From an uncultured Cellvibrionales bacterium (GTDB lineage: Bacteria > Pseudomonadota > Gammaproteobacteria > Pseudomonadales > GM7GCV1), in contig CAJXYP010000012.1 of the NCBI GenBank assembly GCA_913063225.1, positions 1 through 64,000 of the forward strand: a stretch of DNA of 64,000 nt, written 5' to 3'. The notes under the pieces were generated by a model. The model was not told where the DNA came from. It was given only the letters and a program-made list of their open reading frames with translations, and searched no databases. The number at the start of each line of letters is the position of its first letter. Position 1 is the stretch's first letter. Shown here one piece after another: positions 32,196-59,948 of this stretch. Position numbers and translations under genes: made by a program.

Positions 32196-33642
32196 AATAT
32201 TCCGGTAATGTTCCGTTGGTTACCGCTTCGGCCCATGGCTCCTTAATACCGATGTGACGCGCGTCGTAAGTCGGCACATCGGCTGGGTAGTAGCGTGGAG
32301 AGTTATTGAACACAGGTTCAAGCCTATTTACTTCTGGCACTGGCATAGCCGCTATTTCGGCTATCAATCGTGCTGCTATCTCGGGATTAATCGCGGCTAA
32401 ATCATTCTGCTCACTAGGGTCATCAACCACATTGAATAGGCTATAACTTTGCTCACCGGTTTCGGCATTCTCAATGGCCACAAGCTTCAACGGCCATTCA
32501 AAAACACCCAGGCTGCCTGTTGCACCCATAACAACGGTATTCCGTTCTATCTCTACTCCATCGGTAATAGCTGCCCACATACTCTGGCCGTAGGCATCAA
32601 CTACGACTTCAGAATCACCGCCAACTGCGTCCAATAGCGTCGGTAACCAATCATGTACCGCAATAGGCTGCTCTAAAAGACCGCCTGAATCGATGGTTCC
32701 AACCCAGCTTATTAACCCGGGAACCCGCATTCCACCCTCTAAAGCATCACGCTTTGCGCCGCGTAAAATACCGTTGCTGGCACCGAGGCCAGGAACACCA
32801 CCGTTGTCGCTGGAGAAAATCACTATGGTCTCTTCCAGAATGCCCTGCGCTTCCAGGGTATCCAATACTCGACCAATACCGCCATCTAAATGGGTAACCA
32901 TCTCTGCGTAAACGCTGCGGTCGCTGATCTCAGGGTAATTATTCAGATCAGAGTAAGTTGGTGGATGCTGCAAAGGACTATGGGGCGCGTTGTAAGCAAG
33001 CCACATCAGAAATGGCTGTCCCTCGTTTCGACCTTCAATAATACTGACGGCCTCGTCTGTCATCAGGTCTGTTGCGTGACCTTCTTCGTGAACCGAAACG
33101 CCGTCGCGCTGCCAATCCAGCCTTTCAGCAAATACATGGGTATAAAAATCTACCCAACCACCGAGAAGTCCGTAGTAACTGTCAAAACCTTTGGCCGATG
33201 GCCAAGCGCTGGTTTCAGAAAGCCCTAAATGCCACTTACCAATCATATGGGTCTGATAACCCAGATCTTTGAAGTACTCAGGCATTATTTTTAGGTCAGC
33301 AGGCAAGCTGGCGTAGTCGTCGATAGGTCCGGTAATGCCCATATCTAATGGGCTTTTACCTGATAGCAGCGCAGCTCTGGTGGGGCTGCATACAGGGTAA
33401 ACGTAATTACGGTCGAGCTGCATGCCATCTAGGGCTAGCTGATCCAGGTTGGGCGTGGCAATTTCACTGCCGAGGTAACCGACATCACCAAAACCCATAT
33501 CATCAACCATTATAAAAATTACATTTGGCTGCGAAGGAGCCGCTGCAGAAACTTGCGGCATGCTGCTTGCCATATCTTCAGTGGATTCGGAGCACGCCGC
33601 TAGTAACAATATGCTCAATAAAATCAGGCTACTTCTAATCAA
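32182..33642 (-). CDS. Lipoprotein sulfatase, Cys-type (tandem copy B)
   Basis: A 486-residue paralogue of the preceding sulfatase. I use the TTG at 33642, just after GGGGAAAGAAAG, because it gives a normal lipoprotein leader ending LLLAAC (Cys17). The ATG upstream at 33711 would overlap the esterase gene and add a non-signal stretch. The active-site motif is CSPTR again (Cys85), with metal site IMVDDMGFGDVGY and IGKWHLG. Both sulfatases need a formylglycine-generating enzyme; the only SUMF1-domain protein in this window (52406-53254) lacks the catalytic cysteines. The target sulfate ester is unknown. Confidence 0.92.
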   Translation of the reverse strand: MIRSSLILLSILLLAACSESTEDMASSMPQVSAAAPSQPNVIFIMVDDMGFGDVGYLGSEIATPNLDQLALDGMQLDRNYVYPVCSPTRAALLSGKSPLDMGITGPIDDYASLPADLKIMPEYFKDLGYQTHMIGKWHLGLSETSAWPSAKGFDSYYGLLGGWVDFYTHVFAERLDWQRDGVSVHEEGHATDLMTDEAVSIIEGRNEGQPFLMWLAYNAPHSPLQHPPTYSDLNNYPEISDRSVYAEMVTHLDGGIGRVLDTLEAQGILEETIVIFSSDNGGVPGLGASNGILRGAKRDALEGGMRVPGLISWVGTIDSGGLLEQPIAVHDWLPTLLDAVGGDSEVVVDAYGQSMWAAITDGVEIERNTVVMGATGSLGVFEWPLKLVAIENAETGEQSYSLFNVVDDPSEQNDLAAINPEIAARLIAEIAAMPVPEVNRLEPVFNNSPRYYPADVPTYDARHIGIKEPWAEAVTNGTLPEYYEEL

Positions 33643-33694
33643 CTTTCTTTCCCCATTTGTCCAAATTTTTCTGAATCTCTGTGCCGCAGCCCAT

Positions 33695-34630
33695 CTATTC
33701 AATTGATGCATATCCCAATGAAACCAGATAATTACTTATCAGAGTGAATACTTGACTTCGATGTTCCGGTCTGCGGAAAAAATGATCCGCACCTGATATG
33801 AGATGAAACTTGGTTTGATTTCCCGCCTCACCATACTGTTGATGGAATGCCATTGCAGGCTCAAAGGCAACTGTTGTATCGGCGTTGCCATGAATAAATA
33901 GTGCAGGCGGCATGTCAGCAGCAACGTAATTCGCTGGAACAAAGTCATCCATGCTATAGCCTTCGGGCACCATTGAATTTTCTGAATTGTCCGTGCGAGA
34001 AACCGGCACAGACCAAAGAATCATGTGGTTCGGAACCGAACTAACCTCAAGATTCTCTGTGATCTCATCAAACTCATCAATAACGCCAGTGGTGAGCGCG
34101 AGATAGGCGCCTGCAGAATGGCCGGACATAACAATACGATCTGGATCTATTCCTAAGTCGCTGGCGTTTTCTCGTAACCAACGAACCGAAGATTTAGCGT
34201 CTGAAATTATTTCATCGAGCGTACGGTCTGGCGTATCCAATAGACGATATGCAATCGAGACTACGGCAATACCCTCGGGAATAAGCCGCGCAGCTAGGTC
34301 ATAACCCTGCTGAGGACTACCCTGTCGCAAGCCACCACCGTGCATAAAAATTAGTGCGGCTATTTTGTCGCTAGTGCTATGGCCATCTGGAGTGAATATG
34401 TGTGCACTAAGCTCAGAATCACCGACAGTTTTATAGCTTTGTATCGAGCTGGGTTCTATTAGGGAACGACCATCGCCGGGAGGTGGTGGCGGCCGAACGG
34501 GTGCTTGTGCGGCATTTTCCAATGCAATTTCTATGGCCGCGTCCATTTCGGCATTTTCAGGCGCCAAACTGTCACAGGCGGACAGAAAAACTGCCACCAC
34601 CACTGCAATAGAAATCAAATATCTAGTCAT
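33695..34630 (-). CDS. Lipoprotein alpha/beta-hydrolase (esterase/lipase)
   Basis: A 311-residue esterase of the alpha/beta-hydrolase fold. The ATG at 34630 is preferred because GGGGGTGCG precedes it and the leader then ends VFLSAC (lipobox). The oxyanion-hole HGGG is in IFMHGGGLRQGS, the nucleophile in MSGHSAGAYLAL (G-x-S-x-G), and the catalytic His in LISGADHFF; the Asp is probably in FIHGNADTTVAF. It resembles the carbohydrate-esterase-like BD-FAE group. It lies between an amidohydrolase and two sulfatases on the same strand, so it may remove acyl groups from the same substrate. Confidence 0.88.
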   Translation of the reverse strand: MTRYLISIAVVVAVFLSACDSLAPENAEMDAAIEIALENAAQAPVRPPPPPGDGRSLIEPSSIQSYKTVGDSELSAHIFTPDGHSTSDKIAALIFMHGGGLRQGSPQQGYDLAARLIPEGIAVVSIAYRLLDTPDRTLDEIISDAKSSVRWLRENASDLGIDPDRIVMSGHSAGAYLALTTGVIDEFDEITENLEVSSVPNHMILWSVPVSRTDNSENSMVPEGYSMDDFVPANYVAADMPPALFIHGNADTTVAFEPAMAFHQQYGEAGNQTKFHLISGADHFFRRPEHRSQVFTLISNYLVSLGYASIE

Positions 34631-34670
34631 CAGACGCACCCCCGAGAATCTAAAACGACACCCAAATAAA

Positions 34671-36311
34671 CTAAGGCACCATCTCTGACGAAGCATCATA
34701 AACTACGCGCCCGCCAACCATCGTTATCACCGGTTGAATATCAAAGATCTGGTCTACCGGAATATTCATATAATCTCGGTCAAGCACAACCAAATCTGCC
34801 AACTTGCCAACTTCTAAACTGCCAAGGTCATCTTCTTTGTGCAGCAAAAAAGCGTTGCTTCGCGTGTGAGCAATCAAAGCCTCTTCACGAGTCACCGGTT
34901 CTTCATTAATGGTTTGGCCGTTGATGGACTTACCTGTTGTTACCCAGCCTAGAGTAATAAAAGGCTGATAAGCAGAGACAACGCTGGCGTCTGTACCTAA
35001 ACCCCAAACAATACCGCTGTCTTGCATGGCACGAATATTAGGCTGTAAGAAGGGAGGCATATTCATAGCCACCTGATGCACCGCCAAGGTGACGCCTAGA
35101 TCTTTGGCGCGCTCAATACTTGCTTCCGAGATGGTTAAAACATGCTCCAGACTCCAACGCAATGGGGCCAAAGGAGTTACCGCATCTACCTGCTCCCATG
35201 CATCTAGAATGCTGTTGATAGTGACATCCATCATTGAATGCTCATTGATGCGAAAGCCGCCAGATGCCGCAGCCTGAGAAATCTGCCGGAACTCTTCCAC
35301 AACCTCATCGGAATATGGCTCGGTAACATTTGGCAGGTCAAACATGGGAAGGTACACATGCTCACCAATACCCAAAAGACCAAGATAGTCATCTGTGCTG
35401 TTCGCGATATTGTTATTGATTAGCTCTACCGTGGCAGGAATATCCGCTGCACCGTAGGCCTGATATTTAAGTGTGTGCCAAACACGCAGATCAAGCGGGC
35501 CATTTTCAGACATGCGATCAAGAAGGCTTATATCTCCTTCCGGCGGGCGGCCAACATCATAGACACTGGTTAGACCGGCCTTATTTAGCGCCGCAATAAC
35601 ATCCAGGACGTTTTGCTCTAGCTGCGCTGCGCTTACAGGAGGCATTTGCTCATTGAGTAAGCCGTAAGGTGGCTCAGCAACGATGTAGGGAGTACCCAGT
35701 TTTGATCCGTCAGCGGGGTTGGCGCCAACTGCCTCTATAGCGAGAGTATTTGCATAAGCGTGGGTATAAAGAATTTGTAGGAACAAGGGATTATTTGGTG
35801 CTGCTGCATCCAGCTCTTCCAAGGTAAAACCACCGGCTTGATCTGCAAACTGACCTTCACTCCAGCCACCCTGAACCATTATCCATTCACCCGGCTCCAT
35901 GCTGGCTGCTTTTTCAGTTATTACATCCAAAGCGGCTTGCCGGGTATTTTTCCCGTCGATACGCGCCTGTAAATTCCAGCGCTGGGGCATGCGAATAAAA
36001 TGCATATGATTATCGATCAAACCGGGAATTACCGTTTTGCCTTCAAGGTCAATAACCACCGTGGAATCGTCAGCCAATTCGCTAATTGAAATGCTGTCAC
36101 CGACAGAAACAATGCGATCGTCCTTGATAGCTAAGGCACCAGCAACACTAAATTCGTCATCGACGGTAAGCACTTTGCCATTAATAAGAATGGTGTCGGG
36201 AGCATTGGATGCCATTACTTCAGGCATCGCCTCAGTAGTGGAGCGGCCCTCGCAGGCAGACAAAACAAATGTGGCTGCCATTAGGGCTGCCGTTAAGATT
36301 CTATAATTCAT
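34671..36311 (-). CDS. Lipoprotein amidohydrolase family 3 (complete copy)
   Basis: A 546-residue paralogue of the genes at 76-617 and 27539-29188. The lipobox is TFVLSAC (Cys20). Metal-site motifs are GLIDNHMHFIR, GIGEHVYLP, RINEHSMMDV, RWSLEHVLTI and WGLGTDASV. It ends with EVGKLADLVVLDRDYMNI and a metal-binding strand end VVYDASSEMVP. It is 41 bp upstream of the esterase in the same transcript and opens the block of exported enzymes. The permease gene 36377-37699 lies just upstream on the same strand and could be part of the same unit. Confidence 0.87.
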   Translation of the reverse strand: MNYRILTAALMAATFVLSACEGRSTTEAMPEVMASNAPDTILINGKVLTVDDEFSVAGALAIKDDRIVSVGDSISISELADDSTVVIDLEGKTVIPGLIDNHMHFIRMPQRWNLQARIDGKNTRQAALDVITEKAASMEPGEWIMVQGGWSEGQFADQAGGFTLEELDAAAPNNPLFLQILYTHAYANTLAIEAVGANPADGSKLGTPYIVAEPPYGLLNEQMPPVSAAQLEQNVLDVIAALNKAGLTSVYDVGRPPEGDISLLDRMSENGPLDLRVWHTLKYQAYGAADIPATVELINNNIANSTDDYLGLLGIGEHVYLPMFDLPNVTEPYSDEVVEEFRQISQAAASGGFRINEHSMMDVTINSILDAWEQVDAVTPLAPLRWSLEHVLTISEASIERAKDLGVTLAVHQVAMNMPPFLQPNIRAMQDSGIVWGLGTDASVVSAYQPFITLGWVTTGKSINGQTINEEPVTREEALIAHTRSNAFLLHKEDDLGSLEVGKLADLVVLDRDYMNIPVDQIFDIQPVITMVGGRVVYDASSEMVP

Positions 36312-46821: not shown

Positions 46822-47577
46822 CTAAGACTGGTTCGGGCCTAGCACCTGCCAAAACAGCATTAGGCCAACCAAGAAAATTACCGAGTAAATGATCTTGTAA
46901 AAAATATCATTGGATAACTTCTTGTTGGCCCAAACGCCCAATTTGACACCCACTACTGCAAGTGGAATTAACATCAATGACGTCATCAAATTGCCCGGTG
47001 CCAACATGCCTAAAAAACTGTAGGGAACCAGTTTCACAAAATTAACTACCGCAAAGAAAATAACCGCGGTGCCCGCATAGAGCCGTCGATCCATTTTCTG
47101 CGGCAACATATAGAGCTGAAAAGTAGGCGCGCCAGCGTGAGCAAGAAAGCTGGTAAACCCACTGCTGGTGCCCAGCAATACCCCAAGAGGCGCACTTGGG
47201 TTCTTCACAGCAGTCGCGAAGCGACCCTTAAAGAAAAAGTGCACGGTAAAAAGTATTGCGATGGTGCCCACGAAAAGACGAATCATGTCGTCATTTATGA
47301 ATTGGGCGCTCAACCCGCCTATCAGAATACCCAGCATCGCACCGGGAAGAAGAATCATTAAATTGCGTTTGTCATAGGTACCGCGATATTCCCATACGCT
47401 TTGCGCATCCATCGCCAGCAATATGGGCAGCATGATGCCAGCGGCCTGAATAGGCGAAATAACCAATGCCATAAGTGGCACAGCGAGCAAAGCAATACCG
47501 CCAAAACCGCCTTTGGACATGCCCGTAATTAACACGGCGGGCAGTGCTACCGCGTAAAACCATGGATCGGCAATCAT
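46822..47577 (-). CDS. TauE/SafE family permease
   Basis: A 251-residue inner-membrane protein with about eight hydrophobic segments. The signature SKGGFGGIALLAVPLMAL near the N terminus and the internal repeat GTSSGFTSFLAHAGAPTFQL are typical of the TSUP (TauE/SafE) group. Members export sulfite or sulfoacetate or take up organic anions. It is the last gene of the nine-gene minus-strand operon starting at 57202. With two sulfatases elsewhere in the window, sulfite or sulfonate export is an attractive idea, but there is no direct link. Confidence 0.9.
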   Translation of the reverse strand: MIADPWFYAVALPAVLITGMSKGGFGGIALLAVPLMALVISPIQAAGIMLPILLAMDAQSVWEYRGTYDKRNLMILLPGAMLGILIGGLSAQFINDDMIRLFVGTIAILFTVHFFFKGRFATAVKNPSAPLGVLLGTSSGFTSFLAHAGAPTFQLYMLPQKMDRRLYAGTAVIFFAVVNFVKLVPYSFLGMLAPGNLMTSLMLIPLAVVGVKLGVWANKKLSNDIFYKIIYSVIFLVGLMLFWQVLGPNQS

Positions 47578-47633
47578 TGAATTATTCTTCCTACCTTACT
47601 GTCTATTTAAATTTTTATCGAAAGAACTGCAGC

Positions 47634-48962
47634 TTATCGATAGTCGACGGCGGGGGGAAGTACCGTGCCGGTGACCTCGCCAAAACCAATTTTTGGATAG
47701 CCATCTTTCTTACTGGCGCCTTTGAAAGTTACCTTATCGCCAATTTGCAGGAAGCTGCGTAACTCACCCGTAGGCAGTTGTCTGGTTATGGAGCCAGCTT
47801 CAGATAGTTCCATCAGGCAGGCAGAAGCACTAGGTGCTTCACCAGATACCGTGCCGCTACCAATCAAGTCACCCGAACGAAGGTTGCAGCCGTTGCTCGT
47901 ATGCTGGGTAATTATCTGCCCAATGGTCCAGGACGCATCCAAAGTCGTATTGCTGCTATTAACAACCGGATCCATGCCTTGTTGACGCATTTTTTTGGTC
48001 GAAACAAAAACATCGAAATCTACATCGATAGCGCCAGAGGCGCGATTCTGCTCGGAGTCTAAATAGGGCAGCGGTGCAGGCCAACCTTCTTCAGGAACGG
48101 CTTGCTGAGGGGCTCTAAAAGGCGCCATGGCTTCCATGGTTATTACCCATGGAGATACGGAGGTTGCGTGGTTTTTACCTAAAAATGGGCCTAGTGGCAG
48201 TCGTTCCCACTTTTGTATGTCCCGGGCGGACCAATCGTTAACAATACAGAACCCAAATATATGATCTTCGGCATCCTCGATTAAAATCGGATGGCCTCGT
48301 TCGTTGCCGGTACCCACAATAATTCCGAGCTCAAGCTCGTAATCAAAATTTACACAGGGCTTAACCTCCGGAGTTTCGTTTTCGGCCTCTATTTGTCCAA
48401 TAGGCAGGTAAATGGGTGAGCCGGAAACCACCACTGAGGACGACCGACCGTGATACGCACGAGGAAGGTAGTAGCCATTTGGCAAAGGCTTGGTGGCGCC
48501 GGACATTAACTTGCGCATGCGCTTGGCGTGGTGGTGTGAGCATTCGTAGTCAGTGAAGTCACCAATATTCATGGATAGAGCCAACTGAGCATCTGACTGC
48601 GCGAGCATAATATTTTTGGATAATGCTTTGGCTTTGTCCGCCAACTCGCCGTTGTTCAACAGTATGGAAAATATTTGGTTGCGCGCGGCGCTCCAATCTT
48701 CCTTTCCAAGCGCCATAAAGTCGTTAAGTCCAGCTTTTTGTAGGGCGGCTATTGCTTCCTCAGACAAGGCTGACAGCAGACCAGCTCTCGCACAAGCACT
48801 AAGGTCCAGTATCTGATCGCCAATACCAACACCTAAGCGCTGGCCAGCAGCTTCTGTAGTAAAAGCACAGAAGGGTAAATTCTGAATGGGAAAATCAACA
48901 TCAATAATGTTGGCAGATTCGACCCAACTCTGTGCGTCCGCTGCGTGTGTTCTATCTAGCAT
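47634..48962 (-). CDS. fahA: FahA, fumarylacetoacetase
   Basis: It splits fumarylacetoacetate to fumarate and acetoacetate in the last step of homogentisate (tyrosine, phenylacetate-type) breakdown. I use the ATG at 48962 (MLDRTHAADAQSW), 442 residues, since AAAGG precedes it; the longer frame adds an unlikely 25 residues. Motifs: SMNIGDFTDYECSHHHAKRM with the catalytic His, PNGYYLPRAYHGRSSSVVVS, the metal-binding FDYELELGIIVG, and IVNDWSARDIQKWE. Full length matches the family (about 420). It lies downstream of the SnoaL lipoproteins; homogentisate dioxygenase is not in the window. Confidence 0.93.
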   Translation of the reverse strand: MLDRTHAADAQSWVESANIIDVDFPIQNLPFCAFTTEAAGQRLGVGIGDQILDLSACARAGLLSALSEEAIAALQKAGLNDFMALGKEDWSAARNQIFSILLNNGELADKAKALSKNIMLAQSDAQLALSMNIGDFTDYECSHHHAKRMRKLMSGATKPLPNGYYLPRAYHGRSSSVVVSGSPIYLPIGQIEAENETPEVKPCVNFDYELELGIIVGTGNERGHPILIEDAEDHIFGFCIVNDWSARDIQKWERLPLGPFLGKNHATSVSPWVITMEAMAPFRAPQQAVPEEGWPAPLPYLDSEQNRASGAIDVDFDVFVSTKKMRQQGMDPVVNSSNTTLDASWTIGQIITQHTSNGCNLRSGDLIGSGTVSGEAPSASACLMELSEAGSITRQLPTGELRSFLQIGDKVTFKGASKKDGYPKIGFGEVTGTVLPPAVDYR

Positions 48963-48993
48963 CAAAAAACTACCTTTTATAAATGTAAAAAAA

Positions 48994-50106
48994 TTATTCG
49001 GATTCAGTTTGAAACCAATGATCTTGTGGGCCACCAATTTGCAGAAGCATTCCTAGATCGTCGCCAAACCACATATTGAATTTCCACACCTCACCGTCGA
49101 ACTCATGAAAGCCGAATTCGTATGCGGCGATCGGACGATCCTGTGCTGGCAGACCTACCAAACTTACGGAATTTGTAGCCGTTAAACGGAACAGAATTGC
49201 CGCTCTTTTTCCATCTGAGGCAAGCATTGCAATGTGATCAACGCGACCTGGAAAGGCCGGCCCAAAGGGGTATTCAGTTCTTAGATCGAGAGGAGCCCGA
49301 GCGACTATATTCAAAAATCCACTACGCAGGCCTGTGCGTTGTGATTGATCCGCGAGCAGAACCTGCTCTTTGTATGCTGGAGATTTCCAAGCATTTACCT
49401 GAAGCTTATTCAGATATTCTTGTGAATCTATTGGATTGGCCAAGGCTGCTTCCATAATCTCGTCGCCGGTTTGAGTCGGCAATACGAATGGCCAAGCTTC
49501 CCAACGACCGTCAGCACGAGCCGGTAGCTGCTCACCAACCTGAATGAGGAATCCAGCTTCGTCAGCCATATGCCAACTTTTGGTGATCTTGCCATCTTCA
49601 AGCCAGAACATTGCTCCAGCCAAAACATCAACCTCTGTGCCGGTGCCGGGAATACCGTAGAAGTTTCCAGCGTGAGTTCCTCTAATCTGATATCTGACTA
49701 CGACCATATCGCCGTCAGCAATATACATATCAACCAGGTCTCGACGGTTGGCGATGGCTTCATTCATTGGATCTGCCATATCTGCCAGCTGAGAACCTGC
49801 GGCGTGATAGTCCATATTGGCAAATTCGGCACGTATCAGTTCGTAATCCGGAGACAGAAGTTCCACTGAAACTTCAGGTAACAATGAGGTGCTATATGCC
49901 TCCATATATTCCATTACTACAAGCTTGTTGTAGTCTTCCTCTGATACTGGGTAATGGGTTCCCATCGTCGCCGACATTTCTTCATGCATGGCATCATTTA
50001 CTGCATGCTGGTCGCCGCTCTCGCCGCAACCAACTATGAAAAGCCCAAAGCCAAGAAGCATCAGAACCAAATATGGTTTTTTCGAATCAATAAATTTCAT
50101 ACTCAA
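48994..50106 (-). CDS. Lipoprotein with two SnoaL-like domains (tandem copy A)
   Basis: A 370-residue protein with a lipobox GLFIVGC (Cys27). It carries two NTF2/SnoaL-like halves: the first at about 60-195 (VVMEYMEAYSTSLLP, VVVRYQIRGTHAGNFYGIPG) and the second at about 215-360 (LRSGFLNIVARAP, AAILFRLTATNSVSLVGLPA, DGEVWKFNMWFGDDLGML). The repeated R-x-x-(G/A)-T-x-x-(G/S)-x-x-x-G-(I/L)-P element is the family strand. Most SnoaL-like proteins are single-domain, soluble and cytoplasmic. It is a paralogue of the next gene (50145-51230) and lies upstream of fahA in the operon. Some relatives are cyclases or hydrolases, some only bind. Confidence 0.85.
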   Translation of the reverse strand: MSMKFIDSKKPYLVLMLLGFGLFIVGCGESGDQHAVNDAMHEEMSATMGTHYPVSEEDYNKLVVMEYMEAYSTSLLPEVSVELLSPDYELIRAEFANMDYHAAGSQLADMADPMNEAIANRRDLVDMYIADGDMVVVRYQIRGTHAGNFYGIPGTGTEVDVLAGAMFWLEDGKITKSWHMADEAGFLIQVGEQLPARADGRWEAWPFVLPTQTGDEIMEAALANPIDSQEYLNKLQVNAWKSPAYKEQVLLADQSQRTGLRSGFLNIVARAPLDLRTEYPFGPAFPGRVDHIAMLASDGKRAAILFRLTATNSVSLVGLPAQDRPIAAYEFGFHEFDGEVWKFNMWFGDDLGMLLQIGGPQDHWFQTESE

Positions 50107-50144
50107 TTACTTCCCAAAATATTCATAAAATTATTTTTGTGAAT

Positions 50145-51230
50145 TTAGCGCTGCTCTGGAAACCAAAAGCTCTGAGGCCAGCCTAGCTGCATTAACATGG
50201 ATTGGTCATCGCCAAACCACCAAGCATCTCGCCAATATCCATCGACAAACGTCATAAAGGCGAACTCCCATGCATCCATGGGTGCGTTCGATATTGGCAG
50301 CCCATACAAACTAGCGGTGTTGGTTCCGGTCAGACGGAAGCGAATCATGATGGTATCTCCATCAATCAAAAAATAGTCCATTTTGTCTATGCGGTCTGGA
50401 AAACCTCCCCCGAAACCCTGTTCAGCATCACCATATTCGCTTCCAATTCCGGTTATATGCTTGAATCCAGGACGCAGGAAATTATCGTAGGGGCGCGCGC
50501 CATTTTCTTCATTTATGATCCCAGGAGGTGGGTTGTTTGCCTTACGTGCAGCGATTATTAGCTTGTTGTGGTACTCGATAGTACCCGCCGGGTTAGCCAG
50601 CATAAATTGCAGAATGTCATCCGAGGCAATCGCGTGTTCGCCACCGGTTGGTGGAATATTATATCGACCGTCTTCGCGGGCTGGCATCGGAGCGCCCAGC
50701 TGTAGTAAAAGTTCGATTTCATCGCTCATAAACCAAGCTTCGGTGATCTTGCCGTCGGTCAATTCAAAAACTGCGACCGAGTAGATCTCAAAATCCTTTC
50801 CGGTTGCTGGGATACCATAGAGATTGCCTGAATGCGTTCCTTGAATAAGATAGCGGACCGCAACACTGCTTCCCTCGCCCATTACTAGATCAAGAGTATC
50901 TTTACGGTTTGAGATTGCCTGATCAAGGGAATCAGCCTGCTCGGCCAATATTGAGCCCTGAACGTTGTAGGCTAGGTTTTCAAACTCATTGCGAACTTCC
51001 TGATAGTTCCCAGCCATAAATTCATCAGAAAGCTCGGCTGGGCTTAGATCCAAACGGCTTTCCATAAAGCGGGTGACAACCGCCTTATTGATTTCTCTTT
51101 CAGAGAGCCCCGCACTGTCAGCGGATGGCATAGAACCACAAGCAACCAAGCCCAACAGTAGCGCAACCAAAACCCCAGTCTTTAAAACCCAAACCTCTTT
51201 CAACTTTGATTTCAAATCTGAAATAGACAT
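50145..51230 (-). CDS. Lipoprotein with two SnoaL-like domains (tandem copy B)
   Basis: A 361-residue paralogue of 48994-50106. The lipobox is LLGLVAC (Cys32). First SnoaL-like half: VVTRFMESRLDLSPAEL, SVAVRYLIQGTHSGNLYGIP. Second half: LRPGFKHITGIG, IMIRFRLTGTNTASLYGLPI, DGYWRDAWWFGDDQSMLM. Each half keeps the pair of strands with an R-F/Y-x-(L/I)-x-G-T-x-(T/S) core, so the fold should be intact. It lies between the TctC-like binding protein and copy A, with gaps of only 8 and 38 bp. Position in a transport operon suggests it handles the transported compound outside the inner membrane. Confidence 0.85.
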   Translation of the reverse strand: MSISDLKSKLKEVWVLKTGVLVALLLGLVACGSMPSADSAGLSEREINKAVVTRFMESRLDLSPAELSDEFMAGNYQEVRNEFENLAYNVQGSILAEQADSLDQAISNRKDTLDLVMGEGSSVAVRYLIQGTHSGNLYGIPATGKDFEIYSVAVFELTDGKITEAWFMSDEIELLLQLGAPMPAREDGRYNIPPTGGEHAIASDDILQFMLANPAGTIEYHNKLIIAARKANNPPPGIINEENGARPYDNFLRPGFKHITGIGSEYGDAEQGFGGGFPDRIDKMDYFLIDGDTIMIRFRLTGTNTASLYGLPISNAPMDAWEFAFMTFVDGYWRDAWWFGDDQSMLMQLGWPQSFWFPEQR

Positions 51231-51238
51231 CTCATCTC

Positions 51239-52381
51239 CTATTCTTCAACAATGTATTGTTTAATAAATTCAACGGAAGCCATATCAACATTGGCGGTTT
51301 CAGTAAATCGTTGCTGAATATAGTCATTGGGGACCACCTCATAAAAGTAACCTAGCACCTTGGTTACTTCGGCAATCATTTCCGGATCGACCACGGCCTT
51401 GGCAAAGCCCTCTCGTAACATGGCCAAAGCTTCGGGATCTGTTCCGGGCGGGGCCAATAGCATATTGTCGGCAACGCTTCGCAGATCCAGCGCGAGCTTT
51501 AGCGCTTCCCAATATTCACCGGAAGGTGGCTCACCTTTTATCGACTCATATACTTCCATATAAGTTGGAATATCTGGGGCGAAACTTGCGCGGGGATAGT
51601 CCCCATCTGCATTGCGGTAAGGAAAGTGCCACAAGGGAGCAACAAATCCCGGCTCAATCAGCGTAGATACCACCGCAGACCGATATCCGGAAAAAGTACC
51701 GCCAAAACTGTTGATCTCGCTAGTTTGAATGGCGTTTCGCACGGTATTTTCACTTGAGTAACCCGTCACGTATCTATAGTCCAATCCGAGACTATCCAGC
51801 GCCAAACGTGGCATTAAATCAAGACTAGAACTAGTGCGGATACCGCCAAGAACAATATTGTCAGCTCTGGAAATATCTTCCGAAGAATTGAATTCTCCGG
51901 CAACGGCATCCAGGCGTGCAAACTGCATAATCGGCCCACTGCGCAAACCACCGACTACATCAAATTTGTCCAACTCATAGCGGATACCGGGCTCACCCAA
52001 TAATGGCACCAGCAGGCTAATGGGAGCAAATAGCACCGTTTCACCATCTGTCCGAGCAACTTCATAGGCATAGTTGAGCGCGCGAATGCCGGCAGCACCG
52101 GACATATTCTGAACAATAACGTTGGGGTTGCCTGGAATATGCTTACTAAGGTATTTGTTGAGCAACCTGGCACTGGTATCTGTACCGCCGCCGGGGTTAA
52201 AGCCTACAACTATAGTGAGAGTTTTACCGCTAAAATCTGCGCCACCCTCTTGGCTTCCCTGGTTCGAACCCTCGACAGCAGCAGTATCCGTCTCACCCGA
52301 ATCTGAACAACCGAGCAGAACGAGAGCCGCGATGCTAACCAACAGTATCGATCTAAGTTTAAGACTAATTTTGTTCACCAT
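51239..52381 (-). CDS. TctC-like solute-binding lipoprotein of a tripartite tricarboxylate transporter
   Basis: A 380-residue binding protein of the Bug/TctC group. I use the ATG at 52381 after GGAGAGAA; a GTG seven codons upstream is also possible. The lipobox is ALVLLGC. Family motifs: TLTIVVGFNPGGGTDTSARL, VIVQNMSGAAGIRALNY and a C-terminal LAMLREGFAKAVVDPE. Binding proteins of this group deliver carboxylates to TctAB. It is separated from the TctAB gene by a SUMF1-like lipoprotein. It is a lipoprotein rather than the usual free periplasmic protein. The ligand is probably an organic acid, perhaps aromatic given the FAH-type enzymes nearby. Confidence 0.88.
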   Translation of the reverse strand: MVNKISLKLRSILLVSIAALVLLGCSDSGETDTAAVEGSNQGSQEGGADFSGKTLTIVVGFNPGGGTDTSARLLNKYLSKHIPGNPNVIVQNMSGAAGIRALNYAYEVARTDGETVLFAPISLLVPLLGEPGIRYELDKFDVVGGLRSGPIMQFARLDAVAGEFNSSEDISRADNIVLGGIRTSSSLDLMPRLALDSLGLDYRYVTGYSSENTVRNAIQTSEINSFGGTFSGYRSAVVSTLIEPGFVAPLWHFPYRNADGDYPRASFAPDIPTYMEVYESIKGEPPSGEYWEALKLALDLRSVADNMLLAPPGTDPEALAMLREGFAKAVVDPEMIAEVTKVLGYFYEVVPNDYIQQRFTETANVDMASVEFIKQYIVEE

Positions 52382-52405
52382 TTCTCTCCGTGCATTAGAC
52401 ACTCT

Positions 52406-53254
52406 CTAGATATCTTCAGCTAAACGAATACCGTAACCGTTTCCGGCGCTGGTTCTATCGTTATCGTTTCTATTCGCGGCACGAATATTTCGTGAATAAT
52501 GCGTCCAGGAACCTCCTCGCAGAGGGCTTCTCGCACAATCACCTTCGTCCCAAGAATTGCCATTTGTAGGAGCGCCTTCATAGCTGTCGTTCCAGCAATC
52601 TGAAACCCATTCCCATACGTTGCCTGCAGTGTCATACAAACCCCAAGGACTGGGTTCGAAGGAACCAACAGGGGCAGTATATTCCCACTCATCTCGTCCA
52701 AAAATACCGGTTCCCTTGCCGCAGCAATCGTTGGGCCCGTAGTTGGCGTATTCGCGGGAAATATTGCTTCCCCAAGGGTAGGGAGCGTCGGTCCCAGCAC
52801 GGCCCATATACTCCCACTCAGCTTCTGTCGGCAACCGAAAAGAACGTCCAGTCCGTTCGGACAACCAGGCCGCCAAGGCATTGCCGTCATGCCAACTGAC
52901 ATTGGTTACGGGTCGGGTCTCTCGCCCCCAGCCTTCATCACCCGGCAGATCGCGGCCAGTGGATTCAGCAAAAAAATCATAGAGATCAAAAGTAACTTCG
53001 TGGCTGGCAATAGCGAAAGTCTGCACACTAACCTCGTGCACTGGCAGTTCATTGGCGTCACCCTCTTCCACCATATCGCCCATACTGAAAGTGCCACCCT
53101 CAATATGAACCATTGCCGGCATGAGCTCTTGCAGGCGCTCCTGCCGCGCATCAGATTGTGAGCAGGCAGAGACTGCAGTCAGCAATAATGCCACTATCAT
53201 CAGTGAAGAAGCTGTCCTCCAAATACTCATAAAAGTGCTCGTAAAAGAATTCAT
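52406..53254 (-). CDS. SUMF1-like lipoprotein lacking FGE catalytic cysteines
   Basis: A 282-residue lipoprotein of the formylglycine-generating-enzyme (PF03781) fold. I use the ATG at 53254 after AGGGAAAAATGAA; the lipobox then is LLTAVSAC. Family motifs: VHIEGGTFSMGDMVEEG, RPVTNVSWHDGNALAAWLSE, FRLPTEAEWEYMGRAG, GLYDTAGNVWEWVSDCW and LRGGSWTHYSRNIRAANRND. True aerobic FGEs carry two catalytic Cys in the segment after R-G-G-S (x-C-x4-C); here the segment is WTHYSRNIR with none. Thus it should not convert sulfatase Cys to formylglycine by that chemistry. It is inserted between TctAB and TctC and abuts TctAB (stop to frame start 0 bp). A binding or assembly role is more likely. Confidence 0.85.
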   Translation of the reverse strand: MNSFTSTFMSIWRTASSLMIVALLLTAVSACSQSDARQERLQELMPAMVHIEGGTFSMGDMVEEGDANELPVHEVSVQTFAIASHEVTFDLYDFFAESTGRDLPGDEGWGRETRPVTNVSWHDGNALAAWLSERTGRSFRLPTEAEWEYMGRAGTDAPYPWGSNISREYANYGPNDCCGKGTGIFGRDEWEYTAPVGSFEPSPWGLYDTAGNVWEWVSDCWNDSYEGAPTNGNSWDEGDCARSPLRGGSWTHYSRNIRAANRNDNDRTSAGNGYGIRLAEDI

Positions 53255-53281
53255 TTCATTTTTCCCTAATTTTTTAATCAA

Positions 53282-55309
53282 CTAAACAAATAACCAAGAA
53301 GGTATCCAGCCAGGCAATAAGGCCGGCAACTGACTTTCCAGCCAAGCGGGATACCAAAACAGATGCATTACGCGGTCATAAAAACCGATCATAAATGCCC
53401 AAGCGCAAAGGCTGTAGATTAAGCAGGTGCGTAGTCTGTAGCCGCCCCAGAACTTCAAATAGAACCCAATAAATAGCGGCAGCGCAAGCTTTTGACCAAT
53501 AATCAGCATTACCAAGACCATCAATATCAGAGACCCCATAAATAGGGACGCTTTACCAAATACCGCATCCTTACTGGCGCGAGTTACTGCGTTCCGAAAC
53601 CCGGCTTCGGTAGCTAGTGTTTTGCGAAAGGTGAATCCATCATTAACTACCGCGAAGAAGGTAAAAATCGCACCGCAGATGCCTAGTAAAACTGGGAACT
53701 GCTTGACGGAATTTGGCCAGTCCGTTGCAAGAACCGTAGCCGATGAAAAAATCACTAAGAACAGTATGGACAAGGGTAGTGAGAAAACGGGACTACCAGA
53801 TACACCCTCACCCTGAGTAATGTTGGCACCATCGCGTTTTTGTCTGAGGATGCCTCTAATAACCACAAAGAGCGTCACCGCAATAACCAGAGAAATAACA
53901 ACAACGATGGGACGCTGAAGCCATTCAAAACCATCGTAAACACGACCGGTAAGCAGATAGGCATTTTCCATAATACTGCCCAATACCAAAGCCAGTACTA
54001 AGGGAGGTCGTGGCCAAGCTCCGCGCTTCATAAAGAAGCCAACTACTCCCATCGTTAAGCAAACCACCCAATCGCCGATATCCCCGCCACCTAACCAAGC
54101 ACCCATAAAGACAAACATAATGATCGCCGGAACGATCATATGTCCGGGTAAAAATGCCAGCTTAGCCACATGTCTGGCAGTAAGCAGAAGCAACATAGTA
54201 GCCAACATATTGGCGATGGCGATGGACCAGACCATACTAAAGGTCGTGGTAATTTCTGTGGTGAGCATCTCCGGGCCAGGTTTCAGGCCAACGATTAGTA
54301 ATGCCCCAAGCAGTATCGCAGCACCCAAACTACCAGGCACCCCAAAAGCAACGGTAGGTATTAGGGAACCACCACGGGTAGCATTATTTGCCGCTTCAGG
54401 TGCGATTACTCCACGAATATCGCCCTTGCCAAATTGTGATTTATCTTTGGCGGATTGCACGGCGTGACCATAGGCCAGCCAGTCAACGATGGATGCGCCC
54501 AAACCCGGCAACATGCCTATATAGGTTCCAATAGTTGCGCAACGCACGGCGAGCCACCAATGGCGGGCTGCGTCCTTAACGCCATCCAAAATACCTCCGC
54601 CCTCGACTTCCGCACTATCAGTACGGGAAATAGATCGGTTTCGGATGGCCAATTCCATAAGCTCTGGCAGTGCAAACAAGCCAAGAACTACAGGAATCAT
54701 TGGCAAGCCGTCTATTAAATAGCCAACACCAAAATAATAACGAGGTATGGCGCCGGAATCAGAGTAACCGACCGTAGACATCAGCAAACCCAATGCGGCC
54801 ACCGCCAGACCCTTGGACAATGATCCTCCGCTTAGCGAACCGACCATAGTCAGACCAAGTACGCCCAGCATAAATATCTCAGGCGAGCTAAATGATTGAA
54901 TAACCGGGCGAATCAGCGGCAGAGATAGGGCCAATACTAAAGCCCCGAAGACACCACCAAAGGCAGAAGTTGTGAAGGCAGCGCCAAGCGCTCGCGCCGC
55001 ATGACCCTTTTGCGCGAGCGGGTAACCGTCGAGAATTGTCGCTTGGGAGGCAGATGTGCCGGGCACACCGAGCATTACGGAGGAAATGGTATCGCTGGTT
55101 GAGGTAACGGCATACATGCCCAGTAACAGCGCAAAGGCAGAGACCGGGTCCATACCAAAGGTGAACGGCAGAAGCACAACCATGCCAATAATGACGCCCA
55201 GCCCAGGAATTATGCCGAGGAAAATCCCGAATAGAACGCCCAAAAACAAGAAGCCTATTGTTGGCCACTGTAATACCAGTAGCAAACCAGTTAACAGGTC
55301 ACTGAACAT
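53282..55309 (-). CDS. TctA-TctB fusion permease of a tripartite tricarboxylate transporter
   Basis: A 675-residue membrane protein. Residues 1-500 are the large permease TctA: GLGVIIGMVVLLPFTFGMDP, GVPGTSASQATILDGYPLAQ, GMLPGLGASIVDWLAYGHAV and AALGLLMSTVGYSDSGAIPR. From about 520 on, a second block of four hydrophobic segments (LPLSILFLVIFSSATVLATD, FPVLLGICGAIFTFF, LMVLVMLIIGQKLALPLFIG) matches the small subunit TctB. The two are usually separate genes, so this is a fusion. It pairs with the TctC-like lipoprotein at 51239-52381. Transport is driven by ion gradients. Confidence 0.9.
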   Translation of the reverse strand: MFSDLLTGLLLVLQWPTIGFLFLGVLFGIFLGIIPGLGVIIGMVVLLPFTFGMDPVSAFALLLGMYAVTSTSDTISSVMLGVPGTSASQATILDGYPLAQKGHAARALGAAFTTSAFGGVFGALVLALSLPLIRPVIQSFSSPEIFMLGVLGLTMVGSLSGGSLSKGLAVAALGLLMSTVGYSDSGAIPRYYFGVGYLIDGLPMIPVVLGLFALPELMELAIRNRSISRTDSAEVEGGGILDGVKDAARHWWLAVRCATIGTYIGMLPGLGASIVDWLAYGHAVQSAKDKSQFGKGDIRGVIAPEAANNATRGGSLIPTVAFGVPGSLGAAILLGALLIVGLKPGPEMLTTEITTTFSMVWSIAIANMLATMLLLLTARHVAKLAFLPGHMIVPAIIMFVFMGAWLGGGDIGDWVVCLTMGVVGFFMKRGAWPRPPLVLALVLGSIMENAYLLTGRVYDGFEWLQRPIVVVISLVIAVTLFVVIRGILRQKRDGANITQGEGVSGSPVFSLPLSILFLVIFSSATVLATDWPNSVKQFPVLLGICGAIFTFFAVVNDGFTFRKTLATEAGFRNAVTRASKDAVFGKASLFMGSLILMVLVMLIIGQKLALPLFIGFYLKFWGGYRLRTCLIYSLCAWAFMIGFYDRVMHLFWYPAWLESQLPALLPGWIPSWLFV

Positions 55310-55349
55310 TCATTCTCCCCCGAGAAACTAGCTTGGGTATCTATTTGTT

Positions 55350-56198
55350 TTACTCTTCATCCTTGATGGGATTACTCAGCACACCGATCGAAGATATCTC
55401 AACCTCGATGGTATCCCCGTCTTTCATCCAAACAAACGGATCACGACCAAAGCCCACCCCACCAGGAGTTCCCGTGACTATTACATCGCCCGGACAAAGC
55501 GGACCAATAGTTGATAGATACTCGATAAGGTAAGGAATATCGAAACACAGATCGCTAAGTTCAGCGCTTTGCATCACCTCGCCATTCAATCGTGTTTCCA
55601 AACTTAGCTGTGTGGGATCAGGTATCTCATCAGCGGTTACTAGCCATGGACCAAAGCTGCCGCTTTTGTAGAAGTTTTTACCTGCTGTAAAAAGCTGCGA
55701 ATGCCTTTGGAAGTCTCGAATTGACCCGTCGTTGTAGCAGCTGTAACCAGCAATATAGGAGAGTGCGTCTTCGCGCTTAATATGATGGCCAGTCTTGCCG
55801 ATTATCACCGCTAGCTCACCTTCAAAATCAAATCTTTCAGAAACCTTTGGTCGCAACATATTCTGTCCATGCCCAACCTGACACTGAGGATGGCGGATAA
55901 ATACCCAGGGATATTCTGGTTTTTCGCGCTTCATCTCTTTGATATGCGTCATATAGTTAATACCGATGCAAAAAGTTTTCTGCGGCTCAGGTATAACCGG
56001 TAAATATTCTATTTCATCAATGGAAAAGTCAGCATTGCGCGTTGCGAGACCTTGAAGCTCCGCAAGAGCGTCTGCTTCGAGCACCTGCCGTAAGTCCGCA
56101 TATTTGTCTCCCAGAATTGCTCCAGCATCGACTATTCCGCCCTCAACCACCAACCCGTAACTGGCTTTGCCTTCTCTCGTAAAGCTGACTAACTTCAT
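55350..56198 (-). CDS. Fumarylacetoacetate hydrolase family protein
   Basis: A 282-residue enzyme of the FAH superfamily C-terminal domain group (hydratases, decarboxylases and acylpyruvate hydrolases that act on ring-cleavage products). Motifs: FCIGINYMTHIKEMKREKP, the metal-binding FDFEGELAVIIGKTG (two Glu), IAGYSCYNDGSIRDFQR and VTGTPGGVGFGRDP. It is distinct from the full fumarylacetoacetase at 47634. It lies 8 bp from the amidohydrolase stop upstream and 40 bp from TctAB downstream, so it is inside the operon. The substrate is probably a 2,4-diketo acid, not determined. Confidence 0.9.
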   Translation of the reverse strand: MKLVSFTREGKASYGLVVEGGIVDAGAILGDKYADLRQVLEADALAELQGLATRNADFSIDEIEYLPVIPEPQKTFCIGINYMTHIKEMKREKPEYPWVFIRHPQCQVGHGQNMLRPKVSERFDFEGELAVIIGKTGHHIKREDALSYIAGYSCYNDGSIRDFQRHSQLFTAGKNFYKSGSFGPWLVTADEIPDPTQLSLETRLNGEVMQSAELSDLCFDIPYLIEYLSTIGPLCPGDVIVTGTPGGVGFGRDPFVWMKDGDTIEVEISSIGVLSNPIKDEE

Positions 56199-56206
56199 TT
56201 TGTATC

Positions 56207-57202
56207 CTATGAATTCCTGGAAATTATCTTGGATGCATTCTTATGCAGAATCGCTTCTTTGTCTGAATCTGAAATTTTCGCCTCGGCAATGGCATTTTGG
56301 GACCAAGAAGCACCAAATTTTGTACCATCGGTGCCCAACATAATTCGATGGGCACCATATGCCTCTACTGCGCGCTCGATACTACGCGCGCCCATAGAGT
56401 TACAGTCGACCATAACCTTGGACTTAAGAATCTTAGAGGATGGCGTTTCCTGACTTGAATCACGATCCAAACTTATATGATCAAGGCGATCAAGTTCAAA
56501 AGGGATATTTCCGCCGAGATTGTGGCACTGCACCGTCACGTCCGGATAGTCTTCAAGAAAATCCGTCATACATAGCGTAACCATGTTGGAAGATATACGT
56601 GACTGCATATCCAGAGTAACACGCCGAGCGCGGGCGTTATCTACTTCATCACCGGGCGGGTAGGAGGTGTCATTCGGCAACATGCCCGTGTGAACCAATA
56701 TATGTGCGCCGTGCTTTTGCGCTACGTCAAATATCGGCCTAAAGGGTTGTGCGCTTTCAAGAGTCAAAAAGGCGTTTCCCGGTATAAGCGCACCGACAAT
56801 GCCAGGCAAGGCTAGTGCGCGATCAAATTCTTCAGCAGCGATCTCAATATCAGCCAAAGGCAGAGTTGCGAGACCAAAGATACGGTTGGGGTGCTCCTCA
56901 TGCAGTGAAGAAACTGCATCGGAATATAGACGGGAAATAGCTAGCGCTTCTTGCACCGGCAATCGCTCAACGCCAAATACCGCGGAAATCGAAAATACGC
57001 CTGTATCAATATTATTGGCGTCCATCGCCTCGAGGCGCTTCGGCAAGCTGCCGTAGTCGCTCGGAAGTGGGAAAGCACCACGAGGCTGATGAATAAAATC
57101 TCGTCCGTTTTCATCCGCTTCGATTTTTGGCGCTGTATCGCGTTTTCGCATTTCATCCACAAGCTCGGATGGTATCCAATGCGAATGCATATCAATTGTC
57201 AT
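56207..57202 (-). CDS. Amidohydrolase family 2 (ACMSD-like) enzyme
   Basis: A 331-residue TIM-barrel metal enzyme of the PF04909 group, which contains ACMSD and other nonhydrolytic decarboxylases of aromatic acids. The N-terminal metal site is MTIDMHSHWIP (H-x-H). Further ligands are in HILVHTG, VQCHNLGGNIPFELDRLDH and IMLGTDGTKFG (Asp). There is no signal peptide. It is the first gene of the nine-gene operon; the operator-like palindrome lies right upstream. A decarboxylation or hydrolysis step on a ring-derived acid fits the FAH-type enzymes that follow. Confidence 0.9.
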   Translation of the reverse strand: MTIDMHSHWIPSELVDEMRKRDTAPKIEADENGRDFIHQPRGAFPLPSDYGSLPKRLEAMDANNIDTGVFSISAVFGVERLPVQEALAISRLYSDAVSSLHEEHPNRIFGLATLPLADIEIAAEEFDRALALPGIVGALIPGNAFLTLESAQPFRPIFDVAQKHGAHILVHTGMLPNDTSYPPGDEVDNARARRVTLDMQSRISSNMVTLCMTDFLEDYPDVTVQCHNLGGNIPFELDRLDHISLDRDSSQETPSSKILKSKVMVDCNSMGARSIERAVEAYGAHRIMLGTDGTKFGASWSQNAIAEAKISDSDKEAILHKNASKIISRNS

Positions 57203-57555: not shown

Positions 57556-58683
57556 TTAGCGCCGAGCGTTATTTTCTCCACTCAACTCAACACAATCGAA
57601 AGCTTGCAGCGGTCTATCGCTGCGATTCCATATGGATTGACCCGGTATAGGCTTACTAAAATTGAGAGGATCTGTTGCTTCATATTCACGAATCAACTGA
57701 CCGCCGTCATCGGAAAGTCTTATTCGTTCCCGCACGCTCATTAGATTGCTGTGCAAAATGCCCGGATGAGGGAATAGCACACCGGCCTCAAAGCCGATCG
57801 TGTCGACAATCAACTCCTCATCCTCAAACCATCCCACTGAATGACCAACCAAACTCTCTGTAACATTCTCAGGATGTTCAGGCGTATCCATATGAACCGT
57901 ACGAACCACATCCATATATTGGTGCTTTATGAATATGCGATCACCCTCCTGACTAATTTCAGATATACCATTGGGCTCGTGCGCTGCCCTCATAATACTT
58001 GCACCACTGCAAACCAAAGCAGGATCATCAAAGATACGATCGAAATCTTCCGACGCCGCTTGTCCTGCCTCGGTTAAATAGGCTGCGTAAATCCCCAAAG
58101 GGTTCTCTTCCGTACCCACTTCCTCTTCACTTGGTTGCTCTCTATCAAAGGGAAAGGCGATTAGGTCACCGCCAAGGTCACCGTTCGGTCGATAGTGATT
58201 CGCGGTTCTCCAGCTTCCAAAGATGGTGCCGGAGGAATCAACTATGGGCACATTCGCGGACCCGGTCGATTGAGTCTCGGTGCCGGTTGAGCTGACAATA
58301 ACGCCGCTACGCCCTACTTGGGTGCCGTCCTCAAGAGTCGCGCCGCCAAAGGCACAGCCATAGGGGTCGCGTCGTGCTGCGCTTCCGTTAACGGCAATCC
58401 TGTCTCCGGCTGCAAATAGTTCGTCGCTCCAGCCGGAATGACGAAGTATCACCGCTGCCTGCATTTCACAGTTGTAGTTGTTGGTATCGCCATCTGCGCC
58501 TTCAACATCGACGTAAATGTAGGAGTGCGGATTTACAAATCTAAATTCCGTAACTACCCCACTAAAGCTTATCGGTTTGGTAGTGTCATAGTGAGGCGAA
58601 ATGGAGTGGTGTGCCGTTGCTGATGACGCAAAAAAAACTAATAGCATCACGCTAAGTAGTTCTACAAATGCGAAGTACTTCAT
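57556..58683 (-). CDS. DUF6152 family exported protein (copy 6 of 7)
   Basis: A 375-residue protein with a signal peptide of 24 residues ending SSATA. The mature part starts His25-His26-Ser; the second conserved histidine is His53 in FVNPH (mature position 29). It is the nearest relative of the copy at 41182-42249: SPHYDTTKPISFSGVVTEFR, the SGWSDELFAAGDRIAVNGSA block, RTVHMDTPEHP and HSVGWFEDEELIVDTIGF. Compared with that copy it carries an extra ~20-residue insert rich in Glu/Pro (REQPSEEEVGTEENPLG). It is divergent from the next copy (58881). Confidence 0.84.
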   Translation of the reverse strand: MKYFAFVELLSVMLLVFFASSATAHHSISPHYDTTKPISFSGVVTEFRFVNPHSYIYVDVEGADGDTNNYNCEMQAAVILRHSGWSDELFAAGDRIAVNGSAARRDPYGCAFGGATLEDGTQVGRSGVIVSSTGTETQSTGSANVPIVDSSGTIFGSWRTANHYRPNGDLGGDLIAFPFDREQPSEEEVGTEENPLGIYAAYLTEAGQAASEDFDRIFDDPALVCSGASIMRAAHEPNGISEISQEGDRIFIKHQYMDVVRTVHMDTPEHPENVTESLVGHSVGWFEDEELIVDTIGFEAGVLFPHPGILHSNLMSVRERIRLSDDGGQLIREYEATDPLNFSKPIPGQSIWNRSDRPLQAFDCVELSGENNARR

Positions 58684-58880
58684 ACTCTCGGCCCCACCTT
58701 GTTCGTAAAATGACTGTGTTTATATGACGGCTTCTGCGCTAGCAGACCCTATTTTCATCGATAATAATATATAACCGTTAAACTTCTCGATAGGCTAGAC
58801 GCGTAAATTATTCGTCTAACTATCTGTCCATCTATATTTAATCTAGATAATTCGCTATGACTTTAAATCGGGGGATCAAA
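58684..58880. promoter_or_regulatory. Divergent promoter region between two DUF6152 genes
   Basis: 197 bp between the DUF6152 genes at 57556-58683 (minus) and 58881-59948 (plus). It is A/T-rich around 58755-58860 (ATAATATATAACCG, TAATCTAGATAATTC). GGGGGATCAAA is the ribosome-binding site for the right gene. The shared region suggests joint control; no operator was identified. Confidence 0.35.
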
Positions 58881-59948
58881 ATGATCAAAGCTTTAACCAC
58901 ACTAGCTCTAGCCGCACTTGTTTCAGTACCAGCCTCTGCCCACCATAGTTGGGCCGTCGACTATGACACTGACAGCTTTGTAGAGATCGAAGGCGTTGTG
59001 TCTTCTATTAGATGGGTCAATCCTCATGTCAGCTTTAAGGTAGTGGTTAATGCCGACACAGCGTCGGAACAGATATGGGATATTGCAGGCACCTCGGTCA
59101 GTAACTTGGCGCGTATGGATGTAACTAAAAATATCTTAGCCGTAGGGGACAATGTGCTTATGGCTGGCCACGCAGCTAAACGCTCGGATCATGGTATGTA
59201 CATGGTCAATCTTTTACTGCCCGACGGCAGAGAAGCCATTTTTTCAGGCAGTGCAGAACCGCGCTGGTCAGGTGATCGCGTCGGAAATTCCGCTAGTCTT
59301 CGCGGCGAAGTGACCGAACAAGATATTTCAAAAAGGCCTGACTCAATATTTTCAGTATGGACCACGCTTACGGGTGTTCCCGAAAGCCGAACACTGCATC
59401 CAAGAGCCACTGCCGACTACCCTCTAAGTGAAGCAGCTCGTCAAAAAATTGCCGGCTACAACCCGGAAACGGATGACCCCTTTGGTAGCTGCTCACCCAA
59501 AGGAGGCTCCTTAGTGATGGATGCCCCATATCCAGTTGAATTTATAGATCAGGGCGACACCATCTTATTTAAATTGGAAGAATACGATCTGGTTCGGACT
59601 ATTCATCTGACGGATATTCATGATGACCGCAATATCGAGCCAAGCCTGCTGGGTTATTCAACTGCTCGCTGGCAAGACGACATACTATTAGTCACCACAA
59701 CCAAGATTGATTACGCCTATCTTAATGTTGGATCCATTCCGAACTACATCCCGCAAAGCCAGCACGCGCAGTTCCAAGAGACTCTCAGGCTCGGTTCCGA
59801 GCACGACCGTTTGCACTATACCCTAACGGTCACCGACACAGAGATGCTGACCGAACCGTTAGTTATGAGAAAATATTATCAGTGGCGCCCGGGAGAGTCG
59901 GTGCAGCCTTATAGCTGCGATGAAGAGGGCTTGTTCCCTGCTGACTAG
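58881..59948 (+). CDS. DUF6152 family exported protein (copy 7 of 7)
   Basis: A 355-residue protein. The ATG at 58881 follows GGGGGATCAAA; the upstream ATG at 58857 lies before that site. The signal peptide of 20 residues ends VPASA, so the mature protein begins His21-His22-Ser-Trp. The second conserved histidine is His49 in WVNPH (mature position 29). It shares EPRWSGDRVG and a RTIHLTDIHDD/TARWQDDILLVTTT C-terminal half with copies 1 and 3. The end (QPYSCDEEGLFPAD) carries a late Cys present in several copies. Confidence 0.84.
   Translation: MIKALTTLALAALVSVPASAHHSWAVDYDTDSFVEIEGVVSSIRWVNPHVSFKVVVNADTASEQIWDIAGTSVSNLARMDVTKNILAVGDNVLMAGHAAKRSDHGMYMVNLLLPDGREAIFSGSAEPRWSGDRVGNSASLRGEVTEQDISKRPDSIFSVWTTLTGVPESRTLHPRATADYPLSEAARQKIAGYNPETDDPFGSCSPKGGSLVMDAPYPVEFIDQGDTILFKLEEYDLVRTIHLTDIHDDRNIEPSLLGYSTARWQDDILLVTTTKIDYAYLNVGSIPNYIPQSQHAQFQETLRLGSEHDRLHYTLTVTDTEMLTEPLVMRKYYQWRPGESVQPYSCDEEGLFPAD

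Follow-up and report, generated by a model that had tools for sequence, protein, structure and literature searches.

A tripartite tricarboxylate transporter operon with an altered fumarylacetoacetase-like enzyme in an uncultured marine gammaproteobacterium

We analyzed a window of 64,000 nucleotides (contig CAJXYP010000012.1, positions 1 to 64,000) from the genome of an uncultured, marine gammaproteobacterium (assembly of 2.26 Mb, 97% complete). Nine open reading frames, all on the minus strand, extend from position 57202 down to 46822. In order of transcription, they encode an Amidohydro_2 enzyme of the ACMSD superfamily, a first enzyme of the FAH superfamily (FAH1), a fused TctA-TctB permease, a SUMF1/PvdO-like exported protein, a TctC/Bug-type solute-binding protein, two exported SnoaL proteins (SnoaL1 and SnoaL2), a fumarylacetoacetase-like C-C hydrolase (FAH-like) and a TauE/SafE-family anion permease. 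Using the most likely starts, the successive gaps are of 8, 40, 27, 3, 8, 44, 31 and 56 bp. The nine same-strand genes, their order and their small gaps (3–56 bp) are thus as described in the original prediction. The layout suggests that the nine genes are co-transcribed, and by this measure an importer of the tripartite tricarboxylate transporter (TTT) type does share an operon with enzymes acting on C-C bonds and with exported proteins, as had also been proposed.

Matches above the Pfam or NCBIfam cut-off were obtained for Amidohydro_2, FAA_hydrolase, TctA, FGE-sulfatase, SnoaL (two proteins), fumarylacetoacetase and TauE; among the operon proteins, only the FAH-like protein passed the cut-off of an NCBIfam equivalog. 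The nine genes include neither a regulator nor a ring-cleavage enzyme. The promoter scan was uninformative (six sites versus about 16 in shuffles), terminator-like sites (20 versus 12) were scattered within genes, and the Rfam search of the window returned two tRNAs only, with no riboswitch near the operon. Elsewhere in the window, a minus-strand open reading frame (9–617) ends in CLLYTSPSPRDRTRARMPSSA, which we take to be the familiar translation of sequencing-adapter read-through; the start of the contig probably carries adapter sequence. A same-strand run of exported proteins, as read from the sequence, occupies positions 27539–36311. Four of them are lipoproteins, of which two are amidohydrolase-3-like and two are sulfatase-like and contain a C-S-P-T-R motif; the run also includes an alpha/beta-hydrolase and a protein in which two CxxCH haem motifs occur.

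The permease (53282–55309) contains a TctA domain (PF01970, 418 bits). Its TctB part has no Pfam TctB match and is assigned from its length and from hydrophobic helices past residue ~440, with hydrophobic segments at 468, 508, 537 and 587. The solute-binding protein (51239–52402), a predicted lipoprotein (LLGC), has no Pfam match at 1e-3, but its profile matches the solved structures of TctC (6hke) and BugD (2f5x), with a best E of 2e-11, and its orthologues in two genomes are 74–78% identical. The TauE/SafE permease (46822–47577; PF01925, 109.5 bits) is encoded at the end of the operon.

The gene between those of the permease and the binding protein (52406–53254, with ATG start at 53254) encodes the SUMF1/PvdO-like protein (PF03781), whose closest solved structure is PvdO (5hha, E 7e-39). 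Both C-terminal active-site cysteines of FGE (LC..YC) are replaced in this protein and likewise in its two orthologues; an FGE role, activating the two nearby sulfatases, was rejected because both cysteines are missing. The protein resembles PvdO in being exported and in lacking the FGE cysteines, but it lies far below the cut-off of the PvdO equivalog (NF051459; 152.5 bits for a cut-off of 500) and no pyoverdine genes are found nearby. PvdO is a periplasmic pyoverdine-maturation protein needed for the last pyoverdine oxidation, and the purified protein is inactive (PMC6206403). Therefore, no chemistry can be transferred from PvdO to the SUMF1 protein.

SnoaL1 (50145–51230) and SnoaL2 (48994–50100, with ATG start at 50100) both match PF07366 and are paralogues that are 39% identical. 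The AlphaFold2 model of SnoaL1 (pLDDT 86.8) presents two SnoaL/NTF2-like domains. The first domain matches polyketide cyclases (Foldseek E 4e-8; VIA-align Z 11.1, rmsd 2.0 over 119 residues), and the VIA-align matches cover mainly this domain. The fold of the first domain is thus like that of the SnoaL/AknH cyclases (Z about 10–11), but the operon proteins differ from these cyclases in being exported and in having two tandem domains. The SnoaL proteins may act as isomerases, cyclases or carriers. Two further SnoaL di-domain paralogues are encoded in the same genome outside the operon (L059, G000:C12, 84.3–85.2 kb; L060, G000:C17, 40–40.9 kb).

The original prediction considered four of the exported products as a set of lipoproteins. 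Lipoboxes are indeed found in the window for TctC, the SUMF1 protein (SAC), SnoaL1 (VAC) and SnoaL2 (VGC). The set does not hold as a conserved property: in a genome of another family (G422, described below), the TctC and SUMF1 orthologues have no lipobox and present ordinary AxA-type sites of the signal peptidase I type, and about half of the SnoaL homologues, read by eye, lack a lipobox. Judging from these predicted signals, export is conserved and lipid anchoring is not.

The FAH-like protein (47634–48962, with ATG start at 48962) scores 426 bits against TIGR01266, for a cut-off of 375, with both the N- and C-domains matched, and is homologous over its whole length to the fumarylacetoacetases of mouse (FAH, 1hyo) and bacteria (4qku and 5ti1). 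Residues D126, H133, E199, E201, D233, K253 and T257, which we take to be the catalytic and metal residues of FAH, are all kept in the alignment to 1hyo (residue numbers are those of mouse, from which the numbering of the 1hyo chain is offset by 2). Positions 128, 142, 240, 244 and 350 are presumably the substrate contacts of FAH, and three of these five contact residues are lost. The positions of Y128, R142, Q240, Y244 and T350 are occupied by E, S, Q, R and T, respectively, in all three operon enzymes, such that Tyr128 becomes Glu, Arg142 becomes Ser and Tyr244 becomes Arg relative to 1hyo, 4qku and 5ti1; the segment TDFYSSRQHATNVGIMFR of mouse FAH reads TDYECSHHHAKRMRKLMS in the window. Across the class, positions 128 and 142 are Tyr and Arg in all 14 homologues and position 244 is Tyr in 13 of the 14, against Arg in the operon enzymes. 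Homogentisate dioxygenase (PF04209) was not detected in the host genome or in four relatives of the family, while a control genome was positive. Because the contact residues are changed and no homogentisate dioxygenase was detected, the substrate is probably other than fumarylacetoacetate, despite the name initially given to this enzyme; a C-C hydrolase acting on another diketo acid is the probable identity of the protein.

The two genes at the start of the operon encode further enzymes. The amidohydrolase (56207–57202; PF04909, 65 bits) has ACMSD and gamma-resorcylate decarboxylase among its best solved relatives and contains HxH, His, His and Asp motifs, presumably the metal ligands; it is a probable non-oxidative decarboxylase or hydrolase. 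FAH1 (55350–56198; PF01557, 218 bits) groups by its solved relatives with enzymes of the FAHD1/HpcE/diketo-deoxyrhamnonate hydrolase type, and its matches to NCBIfam subfamilies are all below cut-off.

We then compared the operon with other genomes. A congeneric genome (G002) contains the nine genes in the same order with a third SnoaL gene added, on a contig that ends inside TauE. The proteins are 63–88% identical (88% for the N-terminal part of TauE) and most changes are synonymous, with 0.08–0.26 non-synonymous differences per site; dN/dS was not computable due to the saturation of synonymous sites. The shared order, the protein identity and the predominance of synonymous changes indicate that the genes are real and that all nine are coding genes under constraint. 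The genes flanking the operon are also syntenic in G002. Moreover, this TctC is rare, with close copies in only 3 of the 391 sampled genomes of the order (profile search), and the third congeneric genome (G001) yielded no TctC or TctAB matches. These results suggest that the order common to the two congeneric species is partly due to shared ancestry, and that the system is rare.

A further genome with a close TctC copy belongs to another family of the same order (G422; CALBVI, "uncultured Spongiibacteraceae"; a MAG 64% complete). There, residues 1–488 of TctAB (84% identity) end one contig and residues 504–675 begin another, which continues in this order with SUMF1 (56%), TctC (74%) and FAH-like (67%), the next gene being one for DUF6152. 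We infer that the two contig ends are joined in a single locus. No SnoaL gene lies at this core locus, and neither amidohydrolase, FAH1 nor TauE was seen there; homologues of SnoaL1, SnoaL2 and SnoaL3 are found elsewhere in the assembly, on different contigs, and one of these genes is divergently oriented to a DUF6152 gene whose product is 67% identical to the protein of positions 58857–59948 of the window. TctAB-SUMF1-TctC-FAH-like is therefore a conserved core in three genomes, represented outside the genus by a single MAG of 64% completeness in which the permease lies on two contigs. The neighborhood search that had been suggested as a check thus supports the recurrence of this core in a congeneric genome and in another family, but SnoaL genes accompany the transporter only in the genus.

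The distribution of the SnoaL genes differs from that of the core. When 369 genomes of the class were searched with a profile of the SnoaL di-domain, only 2 contained relatives, one of them being the genome of the window itself. Two degenerate peptide patterns revealed 17 SnoaL loci across 84,980 species genomes. Leaving the congeneric locus out, 13 of the 16 loci contain a DUF6152 gene, often adjoining, and none contains TctABC, although close TctAB copies are present in several of the genomes that hold these loci. Outside the genus, SnoaL genes are thus found with DUF6152 genes instead of with the transporter. The operon looks like two modules that were joined in the genus: the core, and SnoaL genes that accompany DUF6152 elsewhere.

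DUF6152 proteins also flank the operon: one gene (57556–58683, minus strand; PF19649) lies upstream, and a second one (58857–59948, plus strand) has a 67% orthologue beside the SnoaL2 orthologue in another genome (L046). The family is hugely expanded in the host genome, with 59 domain hits in 2.26 Mb (including some at 41–60 kb of the window). We counted 58 hits in G002, 21 in G001, 1–2 in the sister genus and none in 14 control genomes. Of 26 distinct N-termini, 25 have His-His directly after the AxA signal peptidase site, an NPH motif is kept, and H25, H26, P52 and H53 are invariant (A5). The mature N-terminal His together with the internal His could form a putative metal site of the histidine-brace type. 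The C-terminal part (151–356) of the protein of positions 57556–58683 resembles fatty-acid-binding/calycin barrels (model m8889e3f6fd82), with a middling match (Foldseek E 2e-4; VIA Z 9.2, rmsd 3.5, 117 residues), and the model suggests a putative pocket for a hydrophobic ligand. We found no mention of DUF6152 in the literature searched.

From the gene content and layout, the family identities, the four-gene core found in three genomes and the altered pocket residues, we infer a catabolic uptake operon for a putative di- or polycarboxylic 1,3-diketo acid, or for a masked oxo acid. The best-supported reading, to which we assign a probability of about 0.55, is that an oxo acid is taken up by TctC-TctAB and cleaved at a C-C bond by the FAH-type enzymes. 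TctC would capture the acid in the periplasm and pass it to the fused TctAB symporter, while the exported PvdO-like and SnoaL proteins might prepare the compound or accompany it on the outer side of the inner membrane. Once in the cytoplasm, the acid would be split and decarboxylated by FAH1, the ACMSD-type enzyme and the FAH-type hydrolase whose pocket is altered, and TauE may export an anionic by-product or balance charge. The original prediction pointed to an aromatic or diketo acid; a 1,3-diketo-type acid remains reasonable, but the aromatic part is unsupported, as the operon contains no ring-cleavage enzyme.

Other explanations account for parts of these data. It is possible, if somewhat unlikely, that the SnoaL proteins work with DUF6152 in an envelope system of their own and are co-transcribed by chance, the functional unit being TctABC, the PvdO-like protein and the FAH-like enzyme only. 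The company of DUF6152 and the absence of TctABC in the SnoaL loci outside the congeneric one, as well as the core without SnoaL in G422, are in favor of this separation. Proximity to DUF6152 is nevertheless partly expected given how abundant this family is in these genomes, and in both congeneric species the operon has retained SnoaL genes (two or three), which have gaps below 50 bp and evolve under purifying constraint. An ordinary peripheral tyrosine/homogentisate route, with a true fumarylacetoacetase and incidental neighbors, appears improbable. Although the enzyme exceeds the curated cut-off of TIGR01266 and keeps all catalytic and metal residues, we rejected this pathway as the main reading on the basis of the undetected PF04209, positive in the control genome, and of the three changed contacts.

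Still less probable, in our view, is a system for an organosulfonate or another sulfur-containing acid, in which TauE would export the released sulfite as in SlcHFG, whose substrate is sulfolactate. Such a system would be consistent with the TauE/SafE gene at the end of the operon, with two sulfatase-like lipoproteins 13 kb away and with the precedent of SlcHFG, a TTT system of Roseovarius and Chromohalobacter (PMC5812351). However, the operon has no C-S-cleaving enzyme and TauE is missing from the core locus of G422. TauE/SafE permeases also carry varied anions. Uptake and C-C cleavage of an oxo acid remains our preferred reading. A bolder version, which we regard as tentative and rather unlikely, would see TctAB-PvdO-like-TctC-FAH-like as a conserved system of a new type based on a TTT: the periplasmic PvdO-like protein would chemically modify the acid once captured and prior to its uptake, and the re-specialized fumarylacetoacetase would cleave it, an undescribed route.

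The component families are all known and it is their combination that is rare. We found no described equivalent of the operon in the literature searched, in line with the original prediction, and no description there of a SUMF1-TctC-FAH-like core with a re-specialized pocket. Ligands are known for a minority of TTT systems. Here, three genomes show a genetic linkage between TctC, the permease and the enzyme whose pocket is changed, such that the substrate can be approached from two independent sides: the ligand of TctC and the substrate of the FAH-like enzyme. PvdO-like proteins are, in addition, placed in a genomic context by this operon.

The location of TTT genes beside catabolic genes is a known arrangement and fused TctAB proteins are rare according to a review of TTT systems (PMC5812351). 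The operon shares with the TctCBA, Bug, SlcHFG and TphC systems a TctA permease, a TctC-type binding protein and catabolic neighbors. It differs from them by the SUMF1/PvdO-like gene that separates the genes of the permease and the binding protein, by a binding protein that is a predicted lipoprotein (in the genus) and by its FAH-like, SnoaL and TauE neighbors. In eight gammaproteobacterial genomes, the genes closest in sequence to TctAB have no SUMF1, SnoaL or FAH gene adjoining. In the TctC-TctAB systems of other gammaproteobacteria that hold the nearest permeases and include a PrpF-type isomerase (named by eye from sequence), fused TctAB is 38–48% identical with TctC adjoining, but the enzyme partner is different, SUMF1 and SnoaL are absent and the signal peptide of TctC is, with few exceptions, of the ordinary kind. 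Finally, the same genome encodes a second lipoprotein TTT system at C6:81–85 kb (L031, G000:C6:72500-92400; also L035 and L144), with TctAB 54% and the TctC lipoprotein 30–31% identical to those of the operon and with DUF6152 nearby. Its TctC/TctAB relatives, 56–79% identical, are found in five other DUF6152-bearing MAGs, and its partners, unlike those of the operon, are an IclR regulator, a nitroreductase, an arylsulfotransferase-like protein and a GST.
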